Shown piece by piece: positions 2,125-26,466 of a stretch of DNA of 64,000 bases. The position numbers were made by a program, and so were the translations under genes. The stretch's first letter is position 1. The number at the start of each line of letters is the position of its first letter. The stretch spans positions 1,922,001-1,986,000 of the forward strand of contig NC_017455.1 of the NCBI RefSeq assembly GCF_000165465.1, read 5' to 3'. The notes beneath the pieces are model-generated. The model saw only the letters and a list, made by a program, of their open reading frames with translations, had not been told where the DNA came from and did not search any database. Source of the stretch: Halanaerobium praevalens DSM 2228. GTDB lineage: Bacteria > Bacillota > Halanaerobiia > Halanaerobiales > Halanaerobiaceae.

Positions 2125-2682
2125 TTATCCATTATATTTATTCATTGCCTTCATAATATCTTCTTTTAACATCAATTCAACTGCAGAGGCTGCTTTAGCA
2201 ACTGTTTGCTCTGCTATTTTTTTAGATTCACTTTTAAAAGTAGTTAATACAAAATCAGGAACTGGTACATTTTCAGGTGGTCTTCCAATTCCAATTTTAA
2301 GTCTTTTAAATTCTTTAGTACCTAAATTATTAATAATGGATTTAATTCCATTATGACCGCCACTACTTCCATTTTGTTTAAATTTAATTTTACCTAAATC
2401 TAAATCTAAATCATCATGAATAACTAATAGATTTTCACTTTCAATATTGAAGTAGTCAAGCAATTTATAAATAGGCTGGCCACTTTTGTTCATATATTGC
2501 AAAGGTTGAAAAATAATTACTTTTTCTGAACCTAAAAAAAAGTCGCCAATCAATCCATCAAATTTATAACTACTATTTATCTTAAATCTTTTGGCTAATT
2601 CATTAATAACCATAAATCCTATATTATGTCTTGTCTGAGCATATTTTTGACCTGGATTACCGAGGCCAGCAATTACTTTCAA
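2125..2682 (-). CDS. pth: Peptidyl-tRNA hydrolase
   Basis: This enzyme releases tRNA from peptidyl-tRNAs that drop off the ribosome, in the cytoplasm. The 185 residues match the family length. The N-terminus reads GLGNPG (6-11) with catalytic-type Asn9, followed by TRHNIGF holding the catalytic His19. HDDLDLDLGK near residue 93 supplies the conserved Asp, and SGGHNGIKSI near 108 is the family glycine-rich motif. It lies about 70 bp downstream of the L25 gene and upstream of mfd, the usual rplY-pth-mfd order of Firmicutes, so co-transcription is likely. Nothing is missing or unusual. Confidence 0.97.
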   Translation of the reverse strand: MKVIAGLGNPGQKYAQTRHNIGFMVINELAKRFKINSSYKFDGLIGDFFLGSEKVIIFQPLQYMNKSGQPIYKLLDYFNIESENLLVIHDDLDLDLGKIKFKQNGSSGGHNGIKSIINNLGTKEFKRLKIGIGRPPENVPVPDFVLTTFKSESKKIAEQTVAKAASAVELMLKEDIMKAMNKYNG

Positions 2683-2708
2683 GCTTTAAACCTCCAATAA
2701 CAAATTAA

Positions 2709-2732
2709 GCGCAGCTCTAAATTTGAGCTACG
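2709..2732 (-). other. Intercistronic hairpin between L25 gene and pth
   Basis: GCGCAGCTC and GAGCTACGC form a stem around a 6-base AT loop in the 69-bp gap between the two genes. No U-tract follows in the direction of transcription, so this looks like a processing or mRNA-stability hairpin and not a full terminator. Its role is inferred from position only. Confidence 0.45.
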
Positions 2733-2751
2733 CCCAATATTATTTCTTTAA

Positions 2752-3420
2752 TTATTCTGCTGGTTCTTCTTCTACTTCTTCCTCTTCTTCATCATCTTCA
2801 CCAATTACTTCTGGTTCTAAGAATTCATCTTCAGCTTCTGTTTCTTCGTCTTCCTCTACTAGCTCAGTAGGTGTAACAACAGTTACAATAACTTCATCAC
2901 TTTCTGTAACTAGATCTAAGCCCTCAGAAAGTTCAAGATCAGCAACAGCTAGAGATTCTCCTACTTCGAGTTCAGAAATATCAATGGTAATTTCTTCTGG
3001 GATCTCAGCTGGTAAAGCATCAATCTCAATTTCGCGTAATAAGTGCTGAAGCACTCCACCATTACGAACACCAAGTGCATCTCCTTCTAAACGCATTGGT
3101 ACAGAAACAGTAATCTTCTCATCCATAGAAATAAATTGAAAATCTACATGAAGCAAGTTCTGCTTAATTACATCTTTTTGATAATCTTTAATAATAACAG
3201 TTGCTTCATCTTCTCCTCCATCTTCTCCGACAAAAGTCAGATCAAAGATAGCATTTGAATGGAGAAGCTTTTCAATGTCCAGTGGATCTACCTTGATAGA
3301 TCTTGGATCATTTCCTCTTCCATAAACAACACCAGGAATTAGTCCGTCCCTTCTTATAGTACGGGCTGCTCCCTTTCCAGTTTCAGTTCTTAGTTCAGCT
3401 TCAATAGAATGTCTCTCCAT
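2752..3420 (-). CDS. rplY: 50S ribosomal protein L25, Ctc type
   Basis: This is a 5S-rRNA-binding protein of the large subunit in its long, two-domain (Ctc/TL5) form. Residues 1 to about 92 form the L25 domain, with the family stretch RRDGLIPGVVYG near 24-35. Residues about 95-185 form the TL5-type beta domain. The last 35 residues are an almost pure Asp/Glu tail ending EEEPAE. Such acidic tails are common in this family and would suit a salt-in or halophilic cytoplasm, which is inference. RBS AAGGAGAGG precedes ATG. It has its own promoter (3509-3537) and leads into pth. Confidence 0.95.
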   Translation of the reverse strand: MERHSIEAELRTETGKGAARTIRRDGLIPGVVYGRGNDPRSIKVDPLDIEKLLHSNAIFDLTFVGEDGGEDEATVIIKDYQKDVIKQNLLHVDFQFISMDEKITVSVPMRLEGDALGVRNGGVLQHLLREIEIDALPAEIPEEITIDISELEVGESLAVADLELSEGLDLVTESDEVIVTVVTPTELVEEDEETEAEDEFLEPEVIGEDDEEEEEVEEEPAE

Positions 3421-3452
3421 GACTATCCTCTCCTTGCATAAATTAAATTTAA

Positions 3453-3484
3453 GCCAGATTACTTTATAATACTGGCAGATCTGC
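3453..3484 (-). other. Hairpins in the L25 mRNA leader
   Basis: Between promoter and start codon lie a perfect 10-base palindrome, GCAGATCTGC (3475-3484), and an overlapping stem, GCCAG (3453-3457) with CTGGC (3472-3476). Both would be in the 5' leader of the L25 mRNA. They are mutually exclusive because they share bases 3475-3476. A regulatory switch is possible but unproven. Confidence 0.35.
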
Positions 3485-3508
3485 TATAAATAAGACATAA
3501 CAAATTTT

Positions 3509-3537
3509 ATTATAACATCAAAGCTCTGTTTGAGCAA
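3509..3537 (-). promoter_or_regulatory. Sigma-A-type promoter of the L25 gene
   Basis: On the minus strand TTGCTC (3532-3537) and TATAAT (3509-3514) are separated by exactly 17 bases, upstream of the L25 start. It lies in the intergenic gap after prs and so gives the L25-pth-mfd group its own transcription start. Confidence 0.7.
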
Positions 3538-3555
3538 GCATTTTAGAAAAATTAT

Positions 3556-4497
3556 TTAAAATAATACACTTACAGATAAATCCTTAAAAATTCTATCAAT
3601 TGCTTCTCCTACTAATGGAGCTATAGAAAGAACCTCCAAATTGTCGAGCTTATACTGTTTTTGAGCTATTGTATTAGTAACTACTATTTTAGTTATTGGT
3701 GCTTTTTTTAAGCGTTCAATTGCTGGGCCTGAAAAAAGAGCATGAGTTCCACAGGCATAAACATCTTTAGCACCTTTTTCTTTTAAAATTTTAGCGGCAG
3801 CAGTAATTGTGCCAGCAGTATCAATAATATCATCTAATAAAATAACATTTTTATTGTCAACTTCACCAATTACATTCATTACTTCAGCTATATTTGGTTT
3901 AGGTCTTCTTTTATCAATAATTGCCATTGGAATATTTAAACTTTCTGCAAAAGAACGAACTCTTTTAACTGAACCAACATCAGGTGCAACAGCAATTAAA
4001 TCTGACCTTTTAAAATCTTTAAAGTAATCAATCATAATTGGAGAAGCATATAAATGATCAACAGGGATATCAAAAAAACCCTGGATTTGAGGAGCATGAA
4101 AATCAATTGCTAGTACCCTTCTCGCCCCTGCTTGAGTTAATAAATTAGCCACTAGTTTGGAAGTGATAGGGTCTCTAGGCCTTGCTTTTCTATCCTGTCT
4201 AGCATAACCATAATAAGGAATAACAGCTGTTATTCTTCTAGCAGATGCTCTTCTTAAAGCATCTATTATCACTAATAATTCCATTAAATTTTCATTGACA
4301 GGAGGTGAAGTAGGTTGTACTACAAAAACATCTGCTCCTCTTACAGTTTCATGAATTCTAACACTTATTTCACCATCTTCAAATCTTTTTATGTCAGCAT
4401 CAACCAATTCAGTACCCAAATAATCACAAAGATCTTGGGCCAATTTAGGATGTGAACTACCAGCAAAGATTTTTAATTGTTCACTATAACTTGACAT
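3556..4497 (-). CDS. prs: Ribose-phosphate pyrophosphokinase (PRPP synthase)
   Basis: It makes PRPP from ribose 5-phosphate and ATP for purine, pyrimidine, NAD, His and Trp synthesis. The 313 residues fit the class I enzyme. The N-terminal block has the flexible-loop sequence YARQDRKARPRDPITSK near residues 97-113 and the divalent-metal region DFHAPQIQGFF near 130. The PRPP-binding loop is VILLDDIIDTAGT near 216-230. It starts 33 bp after glmU, so the two form an operon, the conserved glmU-prs pair of Firmicutes. A spoVG gene lies just upstream of that pair, as in Bacillus. Confidence 0.97.
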   Translation of the reverse strand: MSSYSEQLKIFAGSSHPKLAQDLCDYLGTELVDADIKRFEDGEISVRIHETVRGADVFVVQPTSPPVNENLMELLVIIDALRRASARRITAVIPYYGYARQDRKARPRDPITSKLVANLLTQAGARRVLAIDFHAPQIQGFFDIPVDHLYASPIMIDYFKDFKRSDLIAVAPDVGSVKRVRSFAESLNIPMAIIDKRRPKPNIAEVMNVIGEVDNKNVILLDDIIDTAGTITAAAKILKEKGAKDVYACGTHALFSGPAIERLKKAPITKIVVTNTIAQKQYKLDNLEVLSIAPLVGEAIDRIFKDLSVSVLF

Positions 4498-4530
4498 TTT
4501 TTAACCCCCTGCTCTATTTTATGAGTCAGC

Positions 4531-5907
4531 TTATGTATTATCTTTTTTAGATTTAAATATTTTAGCTGGAACTCCCATAACAGAATGATCTGATTCAATA
4601 TCTTTAGTTACTACAGAACCAGCTGCTGTCTTAACTCTCTCTCCAATTTTTAAAGGAGCAATCAAAATAGAATCACTACCAATAAAAGAGTCTTTACCTA
4701 TTTTAGTCTGAAACTTATTTTTTCCATCATAATTAGCAAAAATTGTTCCAGCTCCAATATTAGTTCTTTCTCCTATATCAGCATCACCAGCATAACATAA
4801 ATGTGGAACTTTGGCACCTTTTCGAACTGTAGTCTTTTTTAATTCCACAAAATCTCCTATCTTACAATTAGATTCCACTTTAGAACCAGGCCTTAAATAA
4901 GCAAAGGGGCCTAGTTGAACATTATTTTCAACCTCACTATCTCTTATTATTGTATTTGCTAATACTTCTACATCGCTTCCAATTAAAGCATTTTTTAATC
5001 TACAGTGAGGATTGATAATGGTATTTTTAGCTATCTTAGTTTTCCCTTCTAGATAATTAAAAGGATAAATAGTCACATCTTGTGCAATTTCAACTTCAGC
5101 ATCTATATAAGTTGTAGCTGGATCAATTATTGTAACTCCATTTTCTAAATGTTTTTCAATAATTCTTTGCCTTAATATTTTTTCAGCTGCAGCTTGCTGT
5201 TTTCTGGTGTTAATTCCGATTATTTCATTTTCATCTTCTACTACATAAGTAGCTATTTTTTTATTTTGTTGTACAGAATAATCTATAATATCTGTTAAAT
5301 AATATTCAGATTGAGAATTATTATTATTCATTTTAGTTAAAAAATTAGACAAAAGTTTACTTTCTATACAGTAAACTCCACTGTTAATTTCTTTAATTTC
5401 TTTAACTTTTGACTCTGCATCTTTTTCTTCTACAATCGCAATTAATTTACCAGTTTTATCTTTAACTATCCGACCATAACCAGTTGGATCTTCTAAAATA
5501 GAAGTCATCACAGTTAAATCATTATCATTATTTTTATGTTCTGTTACAAATTGTTCTATACTCTCTTTGCTTAATAAAGGAGTATCTCCATAAAGAATTA
5601 AAACTGCTCCCTTATGATTTATTATATAATCTCTTGCTTGTTTAACTGCATGACCTGTTCCTAATTGTTCAGCCTGAATAACATAGTTTAAATCAGTTTC
5701 AGCAATAGTTTCTAATTCTGCTTTAACTTTTTTTCTTTGATGTCCGATTACATTTACAACTTTACTATTTAGACCGTCTAAACTGCTTAAAACATGTTTA
5801 ATTATTGATTTTCCAGCAACTGGGTGCAGTACTTTGATTAAGTCAGAATTCATTCTACTACCTTTACCAGCAGCTAAAATAATACTCAAAAGATTCTCAG
5901 TTTCCAT
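4531..5907 (-). CDS. glmU: Bifunctional N-acetylglucosamine-1-phosphate uridyltransferase / glucosamine-1-phosphate acetyltransferase
   Basis: It catalyses the last two steps to UDP-GlcNAc for peptidoglycan and, in a diderm, lipopolysaccharide. At 458 residues it has normal GlmU length. The nucleotidyltransferase signature LAAGKGSRM is at residues 11-19 with the conserved Lys in LIKVLHPVAGK. The Asp-containing ILYGDTPLL follows near 100. From about residue 250 the sequence becomes hexapeptide repeats (left-handed beta helix), ending in the acetyl-CoA-binding region with NIGAGTIFANYDGKNK. A sigma-A promoter lies upstream, and prs follows 33 bp downstream. Confidence 0.97.
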   Translation of the reverse strand: METENLLSIILAAGKGSRMNSDLIKVLHPVAGKSIIKHVLSSLDGLNSKVVNVIGHQRKKVKAELETIAETDLNYVIQAEQLGTGHAVKQARDYIINHKGAVLILYGDTPLLSKESIEQFVTEHKNNDNDLTVMTSILEDPTGYGRIVKDKTGKLIAIVEEKDAESKVKEIKEINSGVYCIESKLLSNFLTKMNNNNSQSEYYLTDIIDYSVQQNKKIATYVVEDENEIIGINTRKQQAAAEKILRQRIIEKHLENGVTIIDPATTYIDAEVEIAQDVTIYPFNYLEGKTKIAKNTIINPHCRLKNALIGSDVEVLANTIIRDSEVENNVQLGPFAYLRPGSKVESNCKIGDFVELKKTTVRKGAKVPHLCYAGDADIGERTNIGAGTIFANYDGKNKFQTKIGKDSFIGSDSILIAPLKIGERVKTAAGSVVTKDIESDHSVMGVPAKIFKSKKDNT

Positions 5908-6002
5908 CTAAATAATCCTCCCCAAACAGGAATAAGATTTACATAAAAAATCATTTTCTAAATTAGACATTATTATTCCATTCTTATACTTTAACCGCTT
6001 GA

Positions 6003-6031
6003 AGTATAACAGAAAATTTAGTTTTTGTCAA
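6003..6031 (-). promoter_or_regulatory. Sigma-A-type promoter of glmU-prs
   Basis: TTGACA (6026-6031, read on the minus strand) and TATACT (6003-6008) are 17 bases apart, about 100 bp upstream of the glmU start and just after the spoVG terminator. Confidence 0.75.
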
Positions 6032-6035
6032 GATT

Positions 6036-6072
6036 GAAAAAACAACACTGCCTTATTTGACAGTGTTGTTTT
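6036..6072 (-). terminator. Rho-independent terminator of spoVG
   Basis: An 11-bp stem (AACAACACTG with CAGTGTTGTT) is closed by a short loop and followed on the minus strand by a run of six T. It sits about 80 bp past the spoVG stop and immediately before the glmU promoter. Confidence 0.8.
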
Positions 6073-6150
6073 AAAACTTAATCTTAATTATTTATCAACT
6101 ATTTACTTTATTTAAATTAAACTTTTTTAATAAAAACAAAACACTAAAAT

Positions 6151-6417
6151 TTAAGCACTAGCTAATAACTCATCAAACTTTGCTAAAACTTGGTTCTCCA
6201 TCAAATCTCTAAACTTAGCTGAAATTGGAAAACAAATATCTTGGTAATCCCCATTTCTTTTTCTTCTAGCAGGCATTGAAAGAAAAACTCCATTCTTACC
6301 TTCAACAACTCTTAAATCTCGAACTACAAAAGAATCATCAAAAGTAATTGTCGCATAAGCCTTGACCATACTTCCATTAATCTCAACTGGAAAAACTCTG
6401 ACATCTGTAATTTTCAT
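6151..6417 (-). CDS. spoVG: SpoVG RNA-binding regulator
   Basis: An 88-residue SpoVG protein, a small nucleic-acid-binding regulator of cell division, envelope and virulence-type genes in Firmicutes. The start is the ATG at 6415-6417, giving MKITDVRVFP, preceded by AAAGGTGG. A longer in-frame extension to 6513 would overlap the previous gene and the promoter and is not credible. The family block GKNGVFLSMPARR and the ending FPISAKFRDLMENQVL are present. It is monocistronic by the terminator downstream. The promoter is of the housekeeping type, not the sigma-H type known for Bacillus subtilis. Confidence 0.95.
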   Translation of the reverse strand: MKITDVRVFPVEINGSMVKAYATITFDDSFVVRDLRVVEGKNGVFLSMPARRKRNGDYQDICFPISAKFRDLMENQVLAKFDELLASA

Positions 6418-6451
6418 AAATGCACCACCTTTGGAATTATTTGTTAATTTA

Positions 6452-6480
6452 ATTATAATTCCAATAATTGTAAATGTCAA
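6452..6480 (-). promoter_or_regulatory. Sigma-A-type promoter of spoVG
   Basis: TTGACA (6475-6480) and TATAAT (6452-6457) on the minus strand have a 17-base spacer, a full consensus match. The -35 hexamer abuts the stop codon of the upstream PurM-like gene (6483). Confidence 0.8.
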
Positions 6481-6482
6481 GG

Positions 6483-7487
6483 CTATTCTGAATATTTTTC
6501 TATAAATTTCCACAACTCATCTTTATCTGGTTTGATAAAATCATTTTTCTTACCCTTTTCTTCTATGTAAGTACCACTTTCTATTAATCTACCTACTCTA
6601 ATCAATTCAATCTTATTTTCTTTAAAAATTTCTTCCAAATTATTATCAGGAGCAGCAGACATTAACATTGAGCCAGAAGAAATTAAAGCTGCAGGATCTA
6701 ATTTAAGTTTTTTAGATATTTCTGAAATAGCTTTTGTGGTTTTGAAATTATCTTTTTCAATTATATATCCTAAACCAGAAGCAGCTGCCATTTCTGAAAT
6801 AGCTCCATAAACCCCACCTTCAGTTACATCGTGCATTGCTTTAACTCCATTTTTGCGTGCTAATCTACTTTCAGGTAACACACTCAACAATTTTAAATAA
6901 GAAGCCGCCTCAGCTATACTTTCTGCACTAACACCTTTTTTAATTAAATGCTCTTGATAATCATTTGCTAAAATATAACTTCCTTCAATCCCCATGCCTT
7001 TAGAAACATATAAAATATCTCCTGCTTCAGCTGCCGAACTAGAACTAAGTTCATCTGCTTCTGCTTTTCCAAGTGAAGTGATTGAAATTATCGGCTTTTG
7101 AACTAAATCAGTAATTTCTGTATGACCACCTAAAACTTCAACCTCAATTTTTTTAGCTGTTTTAACTATTTCTTGCATTAATAAACTTGCTTTTTTTTCA
7201 GTCAAACTAGAAGGTAATAATAAAACCACTTGAATACCAAAAGGTTCAGCTCCAGCTGCAGCAATATCATTACAAGCCACATTTACTGCTAATTCTCCCG
7301 CGTTTTTTTCAGCTCCTGTAATTGGATCAGATGATACAACCAACAAATAATCACCTAAATCAATAACTGTACTATCTTCACCTAAACCAGCAGGAACCAA
7401 AACCTCGGGTCTAAAATGATCAATTTGAGTTAAAATATTTTCTTTTAATTTATTCCCATCTAACTTACCAATTTTCAAAATTATCAC
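6483..7487 (-). CDS. AIR-synthase-related (PurM/HypE/ThiL-like) protein
   Basis: A 334-residue member of the PurM-like ATP-using superfamily that also holds PurM, ThiL, SelD and HypE. The N-terminal domain shows AGLGEDSTVIDLGDYLLVVSSDP (metal and nucleotide binding, about 33-55) and NVACNDIAAAGAEP near 87-100. The C-terminal half has the family stretch MHDVTEGGVYGAISEMA near 222-238. No hyp genes are nearby and it lacks the HypE C-terminal Cys tail, so a maturation role is unlikely. It overlaps the S-component gene by 4 bp (ATGA), so translation is coupled. A phosphorylating role on the transported vitamin is a reasonable guess only. Substrate unknown. Confidence 0.8.
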   Translation of the reverse strand: MIILKIGKLDGNKLKENILTQIDHFRPEVLVPAGLGEDSTVIDLGDYLLVVSSDPITGAEKNAGELAVNVACNDIAAAGAEPFGIQVVLLLPSSLTEKKASLLMQEIVKTAKKIEVEVLGGHTEITDLVQKPIISITSLGKAEADELSSSSAAEAGDILYVSKGMGIEGSYILANDYQEHLIKKGVSAESIAEAASYLKLLSVLPESRLARKNGVKAMHDVTEGGVYGAISEMAAASGLGYIIEKDNFKTTKAISEISKKLKLDPAALISSGSMLMSAAPDNNLEEIFKENKIELIRVGRLIESGTYIEEKGKKNDFIKPDKDELWKFIEKYSE

Positions 7488-8020
7488 TTCCTAAAATAAT
7501 TATCTAAATGATGTGATAAAGGAATTGCTAGAACTCCTCCAATTAACATCTGAGCAAAATCAATACCAATTTCAGGTAGTACAACTGCCCAGCTTAATAA
7601 AAAAGCTTTAGCAAGTGCATAACCCAAAATCATAATATTACCACCAACAATTATAGCAAATATTTTTCTGTCCATTTTTTGTTCTGAATTTTGATTAGCA
7701 ATTTTACCAACTAAAAAACCTTCTAAACCTTTAATAACTAAAGTAAAAGGTGCCCAAATAGAATAACCCAAAATTAAATCTATCATTGCAGAACCTATTC
7801 CGCCAGCTATCCAACCAGCTTTTGCTCCAAAAGTTAAAGCAATTGTATAAATTGCAACTTCTCCTAAATTAAAATAAGAAGTGCTCGGCCCAGGAATATG
7901 TAAATAAGTAGCAACAGCTGTAAAAGCAATAAATAAAGCTAAAAAGGATAAAGACCTTGTATCAAGCTGTTTCAATTTTAGTTTTTTTAAATGTTCCTGA
8001 ATATTTTCTCTGCCATCCAT
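7484..8020 (-). CDS. ECF-transporter S component (vitamin-binding membrane protein)
   Basis: A 178-residue integral membrane protein with five to six hydrophobic segments after a charged N-terminus of about 23 residues. It has the typical pattern of the ECF riboflavin/HMP-type substrate-binding subunits, including FNLGEVAIYTIALTFGAKAGWIAGGIGSAMIDL and GLEGFLVGKIA. Such subunits bind a vitamin or precursor and share an energizing ECF module encoded elsewhere; no EcfA or EcfT gene is in the window. It is translationally coupled to the PurM-like gene. No TPP, FMN or preQ1 riboswitch could be recognised upstream, so the ligand stays unassigned. Confidence 0.8.
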   Translation of the reverse strand: MDGRENIQEHLKKLKLKQLDTRSLSFLALFIAFTAVATYLHIPGPSTSYFNLGEVAIYTIALTFGAKAGWIAGGIGSAMIDLILGYSIWAPFTLVIKGLEGFLVGKIANQNSEQKMDRKIFAIIVGGNIMILGYALAKAFLLSWAVVLPEIGIDFAQMLIGGVLAIPLSHHLDNYFRK

Positions 8021-8049
8021 AACTAATCCCCCTTTAAATTAAATTGTAT

Positions 8050-8138
8050 AAATAAAAATCAGCTGCGAGAAGTATTAGCAAAATAATTACAAGCTATTTA
8101 ATCTACCTTAATTTTTTTCAAAATCACTTTTCGCAGCC
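8050..8138 (-). terminator. Long closed hairpin with U-tract after glnA
   Basis: Read on the minus strand, GCTGCGA (8131-8137) pairs with TCGCAGC (8062-8068), enclosing about 60 AT-rich bases, and is followed by TTTTTATTT. It directly follows the glnA stop (8146) and precedes the S-component gene, so it can act as the glnRA terminator. The unusually long enclosed loop also fits a leader-type regulatory RNA for the next gene. Confidence 0.55.
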
Positions 8139-8145
8139 AAAACAT

Positions 8146-9477
8146 TTAATAAGTAGTTAAATATTGATCAATTTCCCACTGATGAACCTGTTTTTTATAA
8201 ACTGAGCATTCAATCTTTTTAGCTTCAACTAAGTGATTAAAGGTATGTTCTCCTAAAGTTTCCCGCATAAATTGGCTTTCTTGGAAATACTTAATAGCCT
8301 CTTCCATAGAACTAGGCAAACTACTTATACCTCTATTTTTTCTTTCTTGATAACTCATTTCATAAATATTATCAGTTGTTTGTTCTCCTGGATCAATTTT
8401 GTTTTTAATACCTGAAAGACCAGCTTTCAGCATAACTGCTGCCGCCAAATAAGGATTTGCAGTTGGATCAGGATTTCTTAATTCTAATCTAGTTCCATTT
8501 TCTCTAGCTGAAGGAACTCGTACTAAAGCACTTCTGTTTTGAGTTGACCAAGAAATATAAACAGGTGCTTCATAACCTGGGACCAAACGCTTATAAGAGT
8601 TAATAGTTGGATTTAAAATAGCTGTAGTTTCCTTAGCATGCTTTAATAAACCACCTATATAATAATAAGCAATTTTACTTAAACCATTTTTATCACTTGG
8701 ATCATAAAAAGCATTTTCTCCATTTTGATATAAAGACTGGTGAACATGCATCCCCGAACCACTTTCTCCATAAATAGGTTTGGGCATAAAAGTAGCATGT
8801 AAATTATGCTGCATTGCCACAACTTTAGTTACAAACTTAAAAGTTGCAATATTATCAGCTGTTCTTAAGACAGGAGTATATTTAAAATCGATTTCATGCT
8901 GACCAGGAGCAACTTCATGGTGAGCTGCTTCTACTTCAAAGCCCATCTTTTTCAGTGCTAAAACAGTGTCTCTTCTCGCTTCTCCACCTAAATCTACTGG
9001 TGATAAATCAAAATAGCCACCACTATCATGAGTATTTGTAGTTGGATTTCCATTTTCATCTTTTTCAAAAAGGAAAAACTCTGGTTCTGGACCGGCAAAC
9101 ATCTCATAACCCATTGCTTTAGCTTCTGCAATAGCTTTTTTTAAGATTCCTCTGGGACAACCAACAAAAGGACTTCCATCGGGTAAATAAATATCACACA
9201 TCATTCTGGCTGTACAACTACCATTATTTGCCCAAGGGAAAATTGTAAAAGTATCATAATCTGGTTTTAAATACATATCAGACTCATGAATTCTGGTATA
9301 ACCCTCAATTGATGAACCATCAAACATAATTTTTCCATCAAGTGCAGCTGGTAATTGTTCAATTGTGATTGCAACATTCTTAATAATACCTAAAATATCA
9401 ACAAACTGAAGCCTTATAAATTCTACATTCTTTTCTTCAGCAATCCTTAAAATCTTCTCTCTACTAATTTTTTCCAT
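8146..9477 (-). CDS. glnA: Glutamine synthetase, type I-alpha
   Basis: It forms glutamine from glutamate, ammonia and ATP and acts as a cytosolic dodecamer. At 443 residues it has the length of the Firmicute I-alpha class. Visible motifs: MFDGSSIEGYTRIHESDM near 50-67, the metal and ATP motifs AGPEPEFFLFE near 132 and SGSGMHVHQSL near 238, NPTINSYKRLVPG near 295-307 and the cation site REN...LELRNPDPTANPYLAAAVML. The insertion and adenylylation Tyr region of the beta class are absent, consistent with control by feedback and GlnR. Its ATG abuts glnR (9478), making a glnRA operon. Confidence 0.97.
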   Translation of the reverse strand: MEKISREKILRIAEEKNVEFIRLQFVDILGIIKNVAITIEQLPAALDGKIMFDGSSIEGYTRIHESDMYLKPDYDTFTIFPWANNGSCTARMMCDIYLPDGSPFVGCPRGILKKAIAEAKAMGYEMFAGPEPEFFLFEKDENGNPTTNTHDSGGYFDLSPVDLGGEARRDTVLALKKMGFEVEAAHHEVAPGQHEIDFKYTPVLRTADNIATFKFVTKVVAMQHNLHATFMPKPIYGESGSGMHVHQSLYQNGENAFYDPSDKNGLSKIAYYYIGGLLKHAKETTAILNPTINSYKRLVPGYEAPVYISWSTQNRSALVRVPSARENGTRLELRNPDPTANPYLAAAVMLKAGLSGIKNKIDPGEQTTDNIYEMSYQERKNRGISSLPSSMEEAIKYFQESQFMRETLGEHTFNHLVEAKKIECSVYKKQVHQWEIDQYLTTY

Positions 9478-9867
9478 CTATTCTTTCTCCTCCTCCTGGG
9501 AATAATGCTTACTACTTTGAGAAAGTCTTTTAATCAAGGCAGAACGATTAGAAACAGGATAAAGTGAATCTAAATCCAGATCTGAATAATCATTAATTTG
9601 TCCTTCATAGTCAGCTTCAATGTCAAAATCAGCAGCTGTAGTTGGTGACTGTAATTTAGAATGTATAATTTCTATACTATCACCTGCTGCCAGCAATTTT
9701 TTAATTTTAAGTAATCTCTGAATATCATTTTCAGAAAAAAGACGCTGATTACCTTTACTTCTAGCAGGGAAAATTAATTCTTGTTGATCATAATAACGGA
9801 TTTGTCTGGAGCTTAAACCTGTTCTTTTTTTAGTTTCCTTCATCGTAATATTTTTTTCTTGATTCAT
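9478..9867 (-). CDS. glnR: GlnR, MerR-family repressor of nitrogen assimilation
   Basis: A 129-residue MerR-family protein. The winged helix covers residues about 8-75 ([20 protein letters not shown], then [12 protein letters not shown]). The C-terminus is short and lacks a metal or drug ligand domain, as in Bacillus GlnR, where that tail senses feedback-inhibited glutamine synthetase. It sits directly before glnA with no gap. A consensus promoter lies upstream, overlapped by an imperfect TGT/ACA dyad that may be its own operator. Confidence 0.9.
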
Positions 9868-9906
9868 AATATCACTACTCCCAAAATTATAATAAATATT
9901 GTAGAA

Positions 9907-9935
9907 ATTATAACACTCTCAAAAACCTATGTCAA
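9907..9935 (-). promoter_or_regulatory. Sigma-A promoter of glnRA with a possible GlnR dyad
   Basis: TTGACA (9930-9935) and TATAAT (9907-9912) on the minus strand are 17 bases apart. Over the -10 lies TGTTATAATTTCTACA, an inverted TGT/ACA pair resembling the GlnR box, but one base shorter than the TGTNA-N7-TNACA consensus. The promoter is convincing; the operator is tentative. Confidence 0.75.
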
Positions 9936-9963
9936 CCTCATGTGAGCTTTTTCAGCGGTTTTT

Positions 9964-10827
9964 TTAATATTTAGGAATAGTTTTTACTGCAGTCACAAAG
10001 TCATTTTTTCGAGGCCAAGCTGCCGCAACTTTTTCAGCTTGTTTTCTATTTTCATAAATTGAAAATACTGTTGGTCCACTACCAGAAACTAATGTGAATT
10101 CTGCAGCTGTATTTTTAAAGATATCTTTTACTTCTTTTATTTCTGGACAAATTTGCTCAGCTGCTTGAGTTAAGTCATTTTTATAATCAAGTGACCAGTT
10201 AACTTTTTCTTCTTTTTTTAAATTAGCTAAGACTGAATCAAAATCAAATTTTTGCTGGCCCTTTATTTCATCATATAATTTATAAACTTTTGGAGTCGAA
10301 ATTCTAAAGTTTGGAGTAACAACAACTAAATATTTTTCCCCTAAAAAAGGCAATTTTTCTAAAATTTCACCTTTGCCAGCTGCAAAAACAGTTCCACCCT
10401 CTAAACAATAAGGAACATCACTACCAATTTCAACTAAATTTTGTCTTAAAAAATCCAAATTAATTTCTAAATCAAATAATTGATATAGTCCTCTTAAAAC
10501 AGCTGCAGCATCTGTACTACCACCAGCCATTCCAGCTGCTATAGGGATGTTTTTTTCTATATATATTTCCACTCCTTTATTTATTTGTGGATTATTAGCA
10601 AAGAAAATTTCAGCTGCTTGATAAGCCAAATTCTCAGAACCTGTTGGCAAATCAGCTTGGGAGTTTTTAATAATAATTCCCCCACTCTTTTTTTTCAATT
10701 TAATTCTATCTGCTAAGCTGATACTTTGCATAATCATTTCTAGCTCATGAAAACCATCTTCTCTTAAATTTTTAACATGTAGAGCTAAATTTATTTTAGC
10801 AGGTGCTTTTAAATATAATTCTTTCAT
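9964..10827 (-). CDS. ispE: 4-diphosphocytidyl-2-C-methyl-D-erythritol kinase
   Basis: A GHMP kinase of the non-mevalonate isoprenoid pathway, 287 residues as expected. The N-terminal AKINLALHV (about 10-18) and the ATP-binding glycine loop IPIAAGMAGGSTDAAAVLRGL near 93-113 are diagnostic, with VSGSGPTVFSIYE in the third GHMP motif near 246. It is transcribed away from bioY and has a small intergenic gap to glnR. No odd features. Confidence 0.95.
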   Translation of the reverse strand: MKELYLKAPAKINLALHVKNLREDGFHELEMIMQSISLADRIKLKKKSGGIIIKNSQADLPTGSENLAYQAAEIFFANNPQINKGVEIYIEKNIPIAAGMAGGSTDAAAVLRGLYQLFDLEINLDFLRQNLVEIGSDVPYCLEGGTVFAAGKGEILEKLPFLGEKYLVVVTPNFRISTPKVYKLYDEIKGQQKFDFDSVLANLKKEEKVNWSLDYKNDLTQAAEQICPEIKEVKDIFKNTAAEFTLVSGSGPTVFSIYENRKQAEKVAAAWPRKNDFVTAVKTIPKY

Positions 10828-10906
10828 AATTATCCCCCCAAATTTTATTTTTTCAAATATACTATTTAAATATACTTCAGCTTATGATAAACTAAATTAA
10901 GATAAA

Positions 10907-10920
10907 TTGACTAATAGTCA
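10907..10920 (+). promoter_or_regulatory. Palindromic operator-like site in the bioY promoter
   Basis: TTGACTAATAGTCA contains the perfect 13-base palindrome TGACT-AAT-AGTCA (10908-10920). TTGACT can serve as a -35 element, with TATTTA 17 bases on; a TATAAT also lies at 10925-10930. The same arms, TGACT-N3-AGTCA, recur in the promoters of the carboxyltransferase operon (47676-47688) and the CofE-like gene (50680-50692). This suggests one shared transcription factor. Confidence 0.6.
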
Positions 10921-10946
10921 TATTTATAATATTTAAGCAAAAAGGA

Positions 10947-11465
10947 GTGTTAAAAATTAATACTAAAAAAATGATTCAAGCTGCTTTAATGGCAGCTTTA
11001 ACTGCTGTTGGAGCTTATATTTTAATTCCAGTGGGACCTGTTCCAATTACTCTCCAAACTTTTTTTGTTCTACTTTCAGGAAGATTATTAGGTCAAAAAT
11101 ATGGAGTTTTAGCTCAAATTACATATCTTTTATTAGGAGCATTTGGTTTACCAATTTTCTCAGGTGGTCAGGCTGGATTAGGAGTGCTTTTAGGACCAAC
11201 TGGAGGTTTTTTAATTAGTTTTATAGTAGCTAGTTGGATTGCAGGCCACTATAGTGGCCAACGTGAAAAAGATCTTTTTATATTAGCTACTGCTGTTTTA
11301 AGTAATTATCTTTTAGGTAGTCTGTATTTCAGCTTCATAACGGGAAGCAATTTAATTGAAGCCTTTAGTTTAACAGTAATCCCATTTATTCCTGGAGATT
11401 TGTTAAAAATAATTTTAGTTTTAACTATTGCTCCCTTAATCGAGAAAAAACTAGAATTTAATTAA
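10947..11465 (+). CDS. bioY: BioY biotin transporter S component
   Basis: An ECF-type biotin-binding membrane protein with six hydrophobic segments. It shows the family core AALTAVGAYILIPVGPVPITLQTFFVLLSG and, later, GGFLISFIVASWIAG. About 167-172 residues. The start is unresolved: the outer GTG (10947) overlaps the ribosome-binding site AAAGGAG (10941-10947). ATT at 10956 has ideal 8-base spacing and family-like N-terminal length, while the first ATG (10971) is 23 bases away. The window has no ecfAA'T genes, so it must use a shared module or act alone. A palindrome in the promoter suggests regulation; a strong terminator follows. Confidence 0.93.
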   Translation: MLKINTKKMIQAALMAALTAVGAYILIPVGPVPITLQTFFVLLSGRLLGQKYGVLAQITYLLLGAFGLPIFSGGQAGLGVLLGPTGGFLISFIVASWIAGHYSGQREKDLFILATAVLSNYLLGSLYFSFITGSNLIEAFSLTVIPFIPGDLLKIILVLTIAPLIEKKLEFN

Positions 11466-25952: not shown

Positions 25953-26144
25953 TCATTTCGCGTCAGGTAAATATTTTTTTCTAAATTCCTTTCTGGCTTT
26001 AGTTGTATATTTTTTAATGAATTCAGTTTTAGCTTCAGTATAACCATTAAGATTATTTTTATATTCAGGATTATATTCCTTTAAAATAATTGGAAAAAGT
26101 TGCCACAATTCTTCCAGTGACATCTCAGAAAATGATTTAGACAT
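25953..26144 (-). pseudogene. Internally deleted GrpB-family protein (mini remnant)
   Basis: A 63-residue frame with GGAGG before ATG. Residues 1-30 (MSLEELWQLFPIILKEYNPEYK) resemble the N-terminal leader found on some Firmicute GrpB/UPF0157 nucleotidyltransferase-fold proteins. Residues 33-60 (GYTEAKTEFIKKYTTKARKEF) resemble their C-terminal end. The catalytic middle, over 100 residues, is absent, but the frame is intact. This is from memory of the family and needs a search. It may be a deletion product, or a short protein of unknown role. Confidence 0.5.
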
Positions 26145-26220
26145 TGGAACCTCCTCAATGTAACTATCATGAGAACAATTAATTAAATAAACATATAAAT
26201 CAGCACTCCAAGTATTTCCC

Positions 26221-26390
26221 AGAGAAAAGGTTTATCTGATTTTGCACTTCAGACGGAATAGCTTTGATTATAATTTATTTGGAAACAGACTGCCTTTTGT
26301 CTGACCGAAGGGAGTTAAGGCAGTCCCAAATAAATTATATATGAAAAGCGTCAATGAAGTCTGTGGCTAAATCAGATATCCCTTTTCTCC
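26221..26390. repeat. 170-bp imperfect inverted-repeat element (MITE-like or structured RNA)
   Basis: The ends form an inverted repeat: GAGAAAAGG-N2-TATCTGATTT near 26222-26242 against the same words read back from 26389. A second inverted pair, ATAATTTATTTGG, lies further in, and a central perfect stem GACTGCC/GGCAGTC encloses GTCTGACCGAAGGGAG. Arms differ in between by compensating indels. No open frame is present. Only one copy is in the window, and I could not define a target duplication. It fills most of the 322-bp gap between the Na/Pi transporter gene and the GrpB-like remnant. Confidence 0.7.
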
Positions 26391-26402
26391 ATTATAGCAA
26401 AA

Positions 26403-26428
26403 GAAGCCTCCTTTAAAAAGGAGGCTTC
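26403..26428 (-). terminator. Terminator of the Na/Pi cotransporter gene
   Basis: GAAGCCTCCTTT-TT-AAAGGAGGCTTC, a perfect 12-bp stem, followed by TTTT on the minus strand, 39 bp past the stop. Confidence 0.9.
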
Positions 26429-26466
26429 AACTAAATCAGCTATTTTAATGTTAAATTCTTGTAAAC

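Follow-up and report, generated by a model that had tools for sequence, protein, structure and literature searches.

The stretch of DNA analysed here (the window; 64,000 nucleotides of Halanaerobium praevalens DSM 2228) holds an imperfect palindrome at positions 26222–26389, between a Na/Pi transporter gene and the grpB–phoB genes, which makes one rod when folded. Three features of the - strand surround it: the intrinsic terminator of the transporter gene (26403–26428), which is separate from the element; a -10-like hexamer, TATAAT (26391–26396), directly upstream of it and conserved at the orthologous Halanaerobium site in seven species; and a grpB remnant of 63 aa (25953–26144) with an in-frame internal deletion that has removed the PF04229 domain. 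We describe the element on the + strand, antisense to grpB–phoB, which is the strand we infer to fold and which carries CCGAAGG at its apex.

From the base upwards, a 24-nt outer arm (26222–26245) pairs at 88% with its partner (26366–26389) and covaries in orthologues; the ends of this copy read AGAGAAAAGG...CCCTTTTCTCC. Conserved motif A (CGGAATAGCTTTGA, 26254–26267) forms an internal loop with its partner, conserved motif C (ATGAAAAGCGTCAATGAAG, 26341–26359), including a GCTTT helix and GA facing GA. Inner stem I is variable and covarying: its 14-nt 5' strand (TATAATTTATTTGG, 26269–26282) is 100% complementary to the 3' strand (26326–26339). An unpaired bulge of 5 nt on the 5' side (26283–26287), conserved in position, leads to the 9 bp of stem II (GACTGCCTT, 26288–26296, with AAGGCAGTC, 26317–26325). 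The rod is closed by the apical motif TGTCTGACCGAAGGGAGTT (26298–26316), a C(GAA)G mini-hairpin (26305–26311) with GA/GA on its flanks that recurs across bacteria.

Folding of 26215–26432, terminator hairpin included, gives -88.9 kcal/mol for the + strand against -45.1 ± 4.3 for shuffles (z -10.3), and -82.3 kcal/mol for the - strand (z -9.0), none of 200 shuffles reaching the real energy; the fold energy of the element by itself is -69.9. The first-pass annotation had placed an inverted-repeat element at 26221–26390, with a second inverted block, a central hairpin and no reading frame, and all of this stands: no ORF of 40 aa or more lies over the element. It had also taken the adjoining gene for internally deleted, correctly, as most relatives have a grpB of about 200 aa. 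Its suggestion that the element marks an old rearrangement does not hold, because six sister species have the element beside a longer grpB (159–200 aa). Element and grpB occur together at this locus in seven species, and three sister species (G006, G007, G010) lack both. At three related loci (L053, L054, L060), a short separate hairpin lies just upstream of the grpB start, adjoining the ribosome-binding site, with the tip motif on the opposite strand (AACTCGCTGCGGTCCGAC...).

Conserved anatomy and copies in relatives

BLAST found no further copy of the element in the H. praevalens genome and matches in ten related genomes. What the relatives have in common is anatomy more than sequence: a variable outer stem, motif A (CGGAAYAGCTTTGA), a variable inner stem, a 5-nt bulge, a stem of 8–9 bp, the conserved tip and motif C (ATGAAAAGCGTY) follow in this order. 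The rod is thus a set of nested stems whose sequences vary yet stay complementary, while the internal-loop motifs and the tip are conserved. In an alignment of ten sequences, 95.8% of cells are paired, against 37–50% for slid control structures, and 18 of the 29 pairs have changed on both sides, with 0/500 shuffles as good. Double changes dominate, and one-sided intermediates are few.

The covariance model built on this alignment (R1) detected a second copy in the H. praevalens genome (E 4e-6) at C1:784616–784713 (L019 1501–1598), in the 23S–5S spacer of one rRNA operon; this copy would be co-transcribed with the rRNA. The same model found at least 15 copies in G038, which represents another family of the class, and relatives hold both orthologous and dispersed copies. 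The annotation would have been abandoned for a single, unconserved copy with no significant fold; the further copies, the conserved shape and the shuffles speak for it instead. With one or two copies, the element is not obviously active in its own genome now. At locus L008 (G002:C129), two tandem copies about 250 bp apart are flanked by one and the same spacer, as though element and spacer had been duplicated together.

Exchange of types and spread across phyla

H. praevalens has four rRNA operons: in three the 23S–5S spacer is short and empty, in one it is filled. Filled and empty spacers differ beyond the insert, and a clean target duplication is not readable. At the window locus itself, species share three types of element in a pattern that does not match their flanking genes: identity in the element and in the flanks, respectively, is 92.9% and 77% between G000 and G004, 92.9% and 75–80% between G001 and G011, and 95.9% and 76–84% between G009 and G005, while different element types are 60–71% identical. 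Arms of foreign type stand beside full elements. Those in G003 and G009 are 58 nt long and identical to the G000 type at 58/58 positions, remnants in G001 and G005 match that type at 95% and 94%, and G004 keeps a leftover arm of the G001 type. These arms and the mismatch in identity indicate repeated replacement of one type by another at this site, either by insertion or by recombination; interspecies homologous recombination could yield such swaps without transposition. Mobility of the element is probable, as judged from copy distribution and sequence comparison.

Five loci (L053, L054, L055, L056 and L057) have one-arm half-elements in tandem with the full element on its grpB side, followed by a conserved spacer of about 60 nt; their arm types are unlike that of the full element.

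Beyond Halanaerobium, similar rods capped by the apical motif TGTYTGA-NCGNAGN-GAGTT occur in Bacillota, Bacteroidota, Proteobacteria, Nitrospirota and candidate phyla. At least 118 genome-contig stretches from many phyla contain the exact tip CTGTYTGASCGAAGSGAGTT (hosts include Lachnospiraceae, Bacteroides, Parabacteroides, Flavobacterium, Variovorax, Ralstonia, Nitrospira and candidate phyla), mostly at the apex of a long rod. Arms of the same locus pair with a median score of 16, whereas arms from different loci do not pair (median 7, maximum 12). With a looser pattern, one Lachnospiraceae genome has 134 copies, Noviherbaspirillum 72, Ralstonia 59 and Arcicella 46; the reversed pattern, as control, gives 0–5. 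Occurrence is patchy: 16 of the 398 genomes sampled from the phylum have the element. Phages were considered as carriers and rejected, since only 14 stretches turned up among 2.9 million viral contigs.

Genome G311 holds two subfamilies of about 300 bp whose members end alike (CAGC...GCGTACCT) and frequently stand in (-,+) pairs, 260–440 nt apart. Some of its copies (L303, L317, L321) contain a different hairpin repeat of about 46 nt (GCCTTAGCGCACAG...CTGTGA-like) inside the right arm. Copies from Bacteroidota, e.g. L294 and L125, have a second conserved hairpin (TTTTTTGGTTCTTTTG...CAAAAGAAC) after the rod and a GCGTTAA/TAGC module repeated in the internal loops.

The tip motif and the overall anatomy are what links the Halanaerobium rods to those of other phyla, and such likeness of sequence and shape might also have arisen by convergence. 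Only the tip of about 20 nt is common to the phyla, and sequence searches miss repeats that are spread by structure. We found no description of the tip motif strings or of the Halanaerobium repeats in the open-licence literature; the family is apparently undescribed, with an earlier description elsewhere possible.

The probable folding strand and rival readings

Isolated stem mismatches are asymmetric. On the strand with a GCGAAGC-type tip, G.T, G.A and G.G are far commoner than A.C, C.T and C.C. Counted per element, 29 have more G.T than A.C and 6 the opposite (p=1e-4); for G.A and C.T the split is 35 to 4 (p=3e-7), although the G.A counts partly reflect conserved positions. This is the tolerance expected if the GCGAAGC-type strand folds, and it favours that strand. 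The DNA mini-hairpin d(GCGAAGC) is extraordinarily stable, and by analogy the C(GNA)G tips fit folding of the same strand. On the - strand, a UNCG tetraloop suits some Halanaerobium copies (CUUCGG, CUACGG, CUGCGG); as a general rule it was rejected, as it misfits the common GCGAAGC type. Replication-strand bias in G311 (25 vs 14) is a trend only.

It is rather unlikely that the element is a structured non-coding RNA or a cis-acting 5' leader, a stabiliser or attenuator, of the grpB–phoB operon. Such a reading would account for its start at the expected transcription start, directly after TATAAT: the element would form the first ~170 nt of any grpB–phoB transcript, and a leader function is possible. 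The - strand folds well too, the structure is kept in orthologues with both-sided changes in 23 of 56 pairs, and both copies in the H. praevalens genome, at the window locus and in the 23S–5S spacer, have the same strand transcribed. Yet no -35 was found for the hexamer, the three sister species without the element keep a promoter-like site directly before phoB, and the mismatch tolerance favours the other strand. Across phyla, orientation to neighbouring genes in co-directional gaps is random (13 vs 19), and copies lie in convergent gaps more often than in divergent ones (22 vs 9), which speaks for a DNA element over an RNA gene but is no proof. No Rfam 15 family matched above its gathering score, and whatever a permissive scan picked up was below threshold and lay mostly near the terminator. 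6S RNA (RF00013) was considered as well and set aside: that of this genome lies elsewhere (C1:773439–773613).

A REP/BIME-like repeat moved by a RAYT (TnpA-REP, Y1 HUH) transposase is also an unlikely identity for the element, despite being extragenic, palindromic, multicopy, often in inverted pairs and enriched between convergent genes. RAYT-type Y1 transposases are the obvious candidate partners (PMC2817692, PMC3733652, PMC6006769), RAYTs with flanking long inverted repeats have been described (PMC3733652, PMC6006769), and in G084 one copy has a RAYT gene at a distance of 0.3 kb. That gene, however, sits among other repeats, none of 30 other fetched Y1 loci has an element nearby, and 12 of the 29 element-bearing genomes lack a PF01797 match, including one with 72 motif copies; three of these 12 gave a divergent Y1-like tblastn match. 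We therefore rejected RAYT/IS200 as a general partner. Locus L212 of G084 (2311–11000) combines, within 13 kb, several copies with GTAG-like repeats and a single RAYT gene. No recurrent neighbouring gene emerged around the copies, where we met only ordinary gene families or ORFs running through the repeat itself, and no transposase with matching ends was found among the neighbouring genes. A dedicated enzyme might be rare, might have been lost or might come from a different family.

The least probable reading by far takes the rods for passive, immobile palindromes: long hairpins that template switching by the polymerase creates and keeps perfect. The mostly both-sided changes with few one-sided intermediates are what template switching predicts (PMC8794818). 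A conserved tip across phyla, the family ends, the copy numbers and the coexistence of filled and empty rRNA operons would all be left unexplained, and the dispersal of the element largely refutes this reading. Template switching between arms, which has been described for RNA hairpins (PMC8794818), probably does maintain the complementarity. As it would change both arms in one step, covariation alone does not establish that the fold is functional; better evidence comes from the loops, which are conserved, and from the asymmetry between the strands.

A probable family of mobile palindromes and its likeness to known systems

We consider it likely that the window element belongs to a widespread family of palindromic DNA elements, mobile but non-autonomous. 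This reading is supported by the dispersed, tandem and paired copies, the filled and empty rRNA operons and the element types out of step with their flanks. The annotation had offered a MITE or a rod-like RNA; what survives is a repeated, mobile-looking palindrome with conserved shape. It is no classical MITE: its stem sequences are not conserved, and neither a clear target duplication nor a transposase with matching ends was found. A stranded RNA gene is disfavoured by the Rfam result and the random gene orientation.

When one DNA strand is exposed, in replication, repair or transfer, the GCGAAGC-type strand would fold into the rod. An enzyme supplied in trans may then read the tip and the internal loops, not the stem sequence, and move or copy the unit. 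That it acts on single-strand DNA, like an HUH-type nuclease, would be a guess. The Halanaerobium copy, between TATAAT and grpB–phoB, is probably also transcribed as leader RNA.

More tentatively, and with some doubt, the rods may belong to a pan-bacterial superfamily of mobile DNA, not described before and read by its single-strand shape, with a C(GNA)G mini-hairpin between GA/GA flanks, drifting stems and an enzyme outside RAYT/IS200. If real, it adds a large, patchy class to bacterial mobile DNA and raises the question of which enzyme reads the tip. The family is also a natural test of how long palindromes are kept up, by template switching or by selection.

Several known systems resemble the rods in part. 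Integron attC sites function as a folded single strand in which the stem varies and unpaired positions are conserved. The rods are alike in this, but on inspection have no R-box GTT/AAC (GTTRRRY / RYYYAAC) ends, form no cassette arrays and have been linked to no integron integrase. The terminal inverted repeats of TIRYT/TIRtron elements are likewise long and in moderately abundant families, many with GGGGWSAS (PMC3733652); the rods differ in having the apical motif instead and were not found flanking transposase genes. Like MITEs (RUP, NEMIS, Bcr1, Nezha; 70–300 bp), they are short and non-coding, probably mobile, bounded by terminal inverted repeats and found repeatedly in genomes, whereas their arms pair over the whole length, their stems vary, and neither a parental transposon among the neighbouring genes nor a clear target duplication was found.

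The closest likeness in habit is to REP/BIME/REPIN with TnpA-REP (RAYT): in other genomes the rods are extragenic, many-copied and often in inverted pairs, with convergent-gene enrichment (the H. praevalens genome has 2 copies), and single-strand DNA shape is the likely signal in both. REPs, in contrast, measure 20–40 nt against 170–300 bp for the rods, whose stems are almost free in sequence, which have no consistent RAYT gene, and which conserve the tip instead of a GTAG/GTGG foot at the ends; a CGTC does occur, inside motif C (26349–26352) and not at the element end. Because the GTAG foot and the RAYT association were looked for and not found, and no parental transposon came to light beside the copies, we file the rods under neither heading but as a variant of the REP/MITE kind, the family being most likely non-autonomous mobile palindromic DNA.
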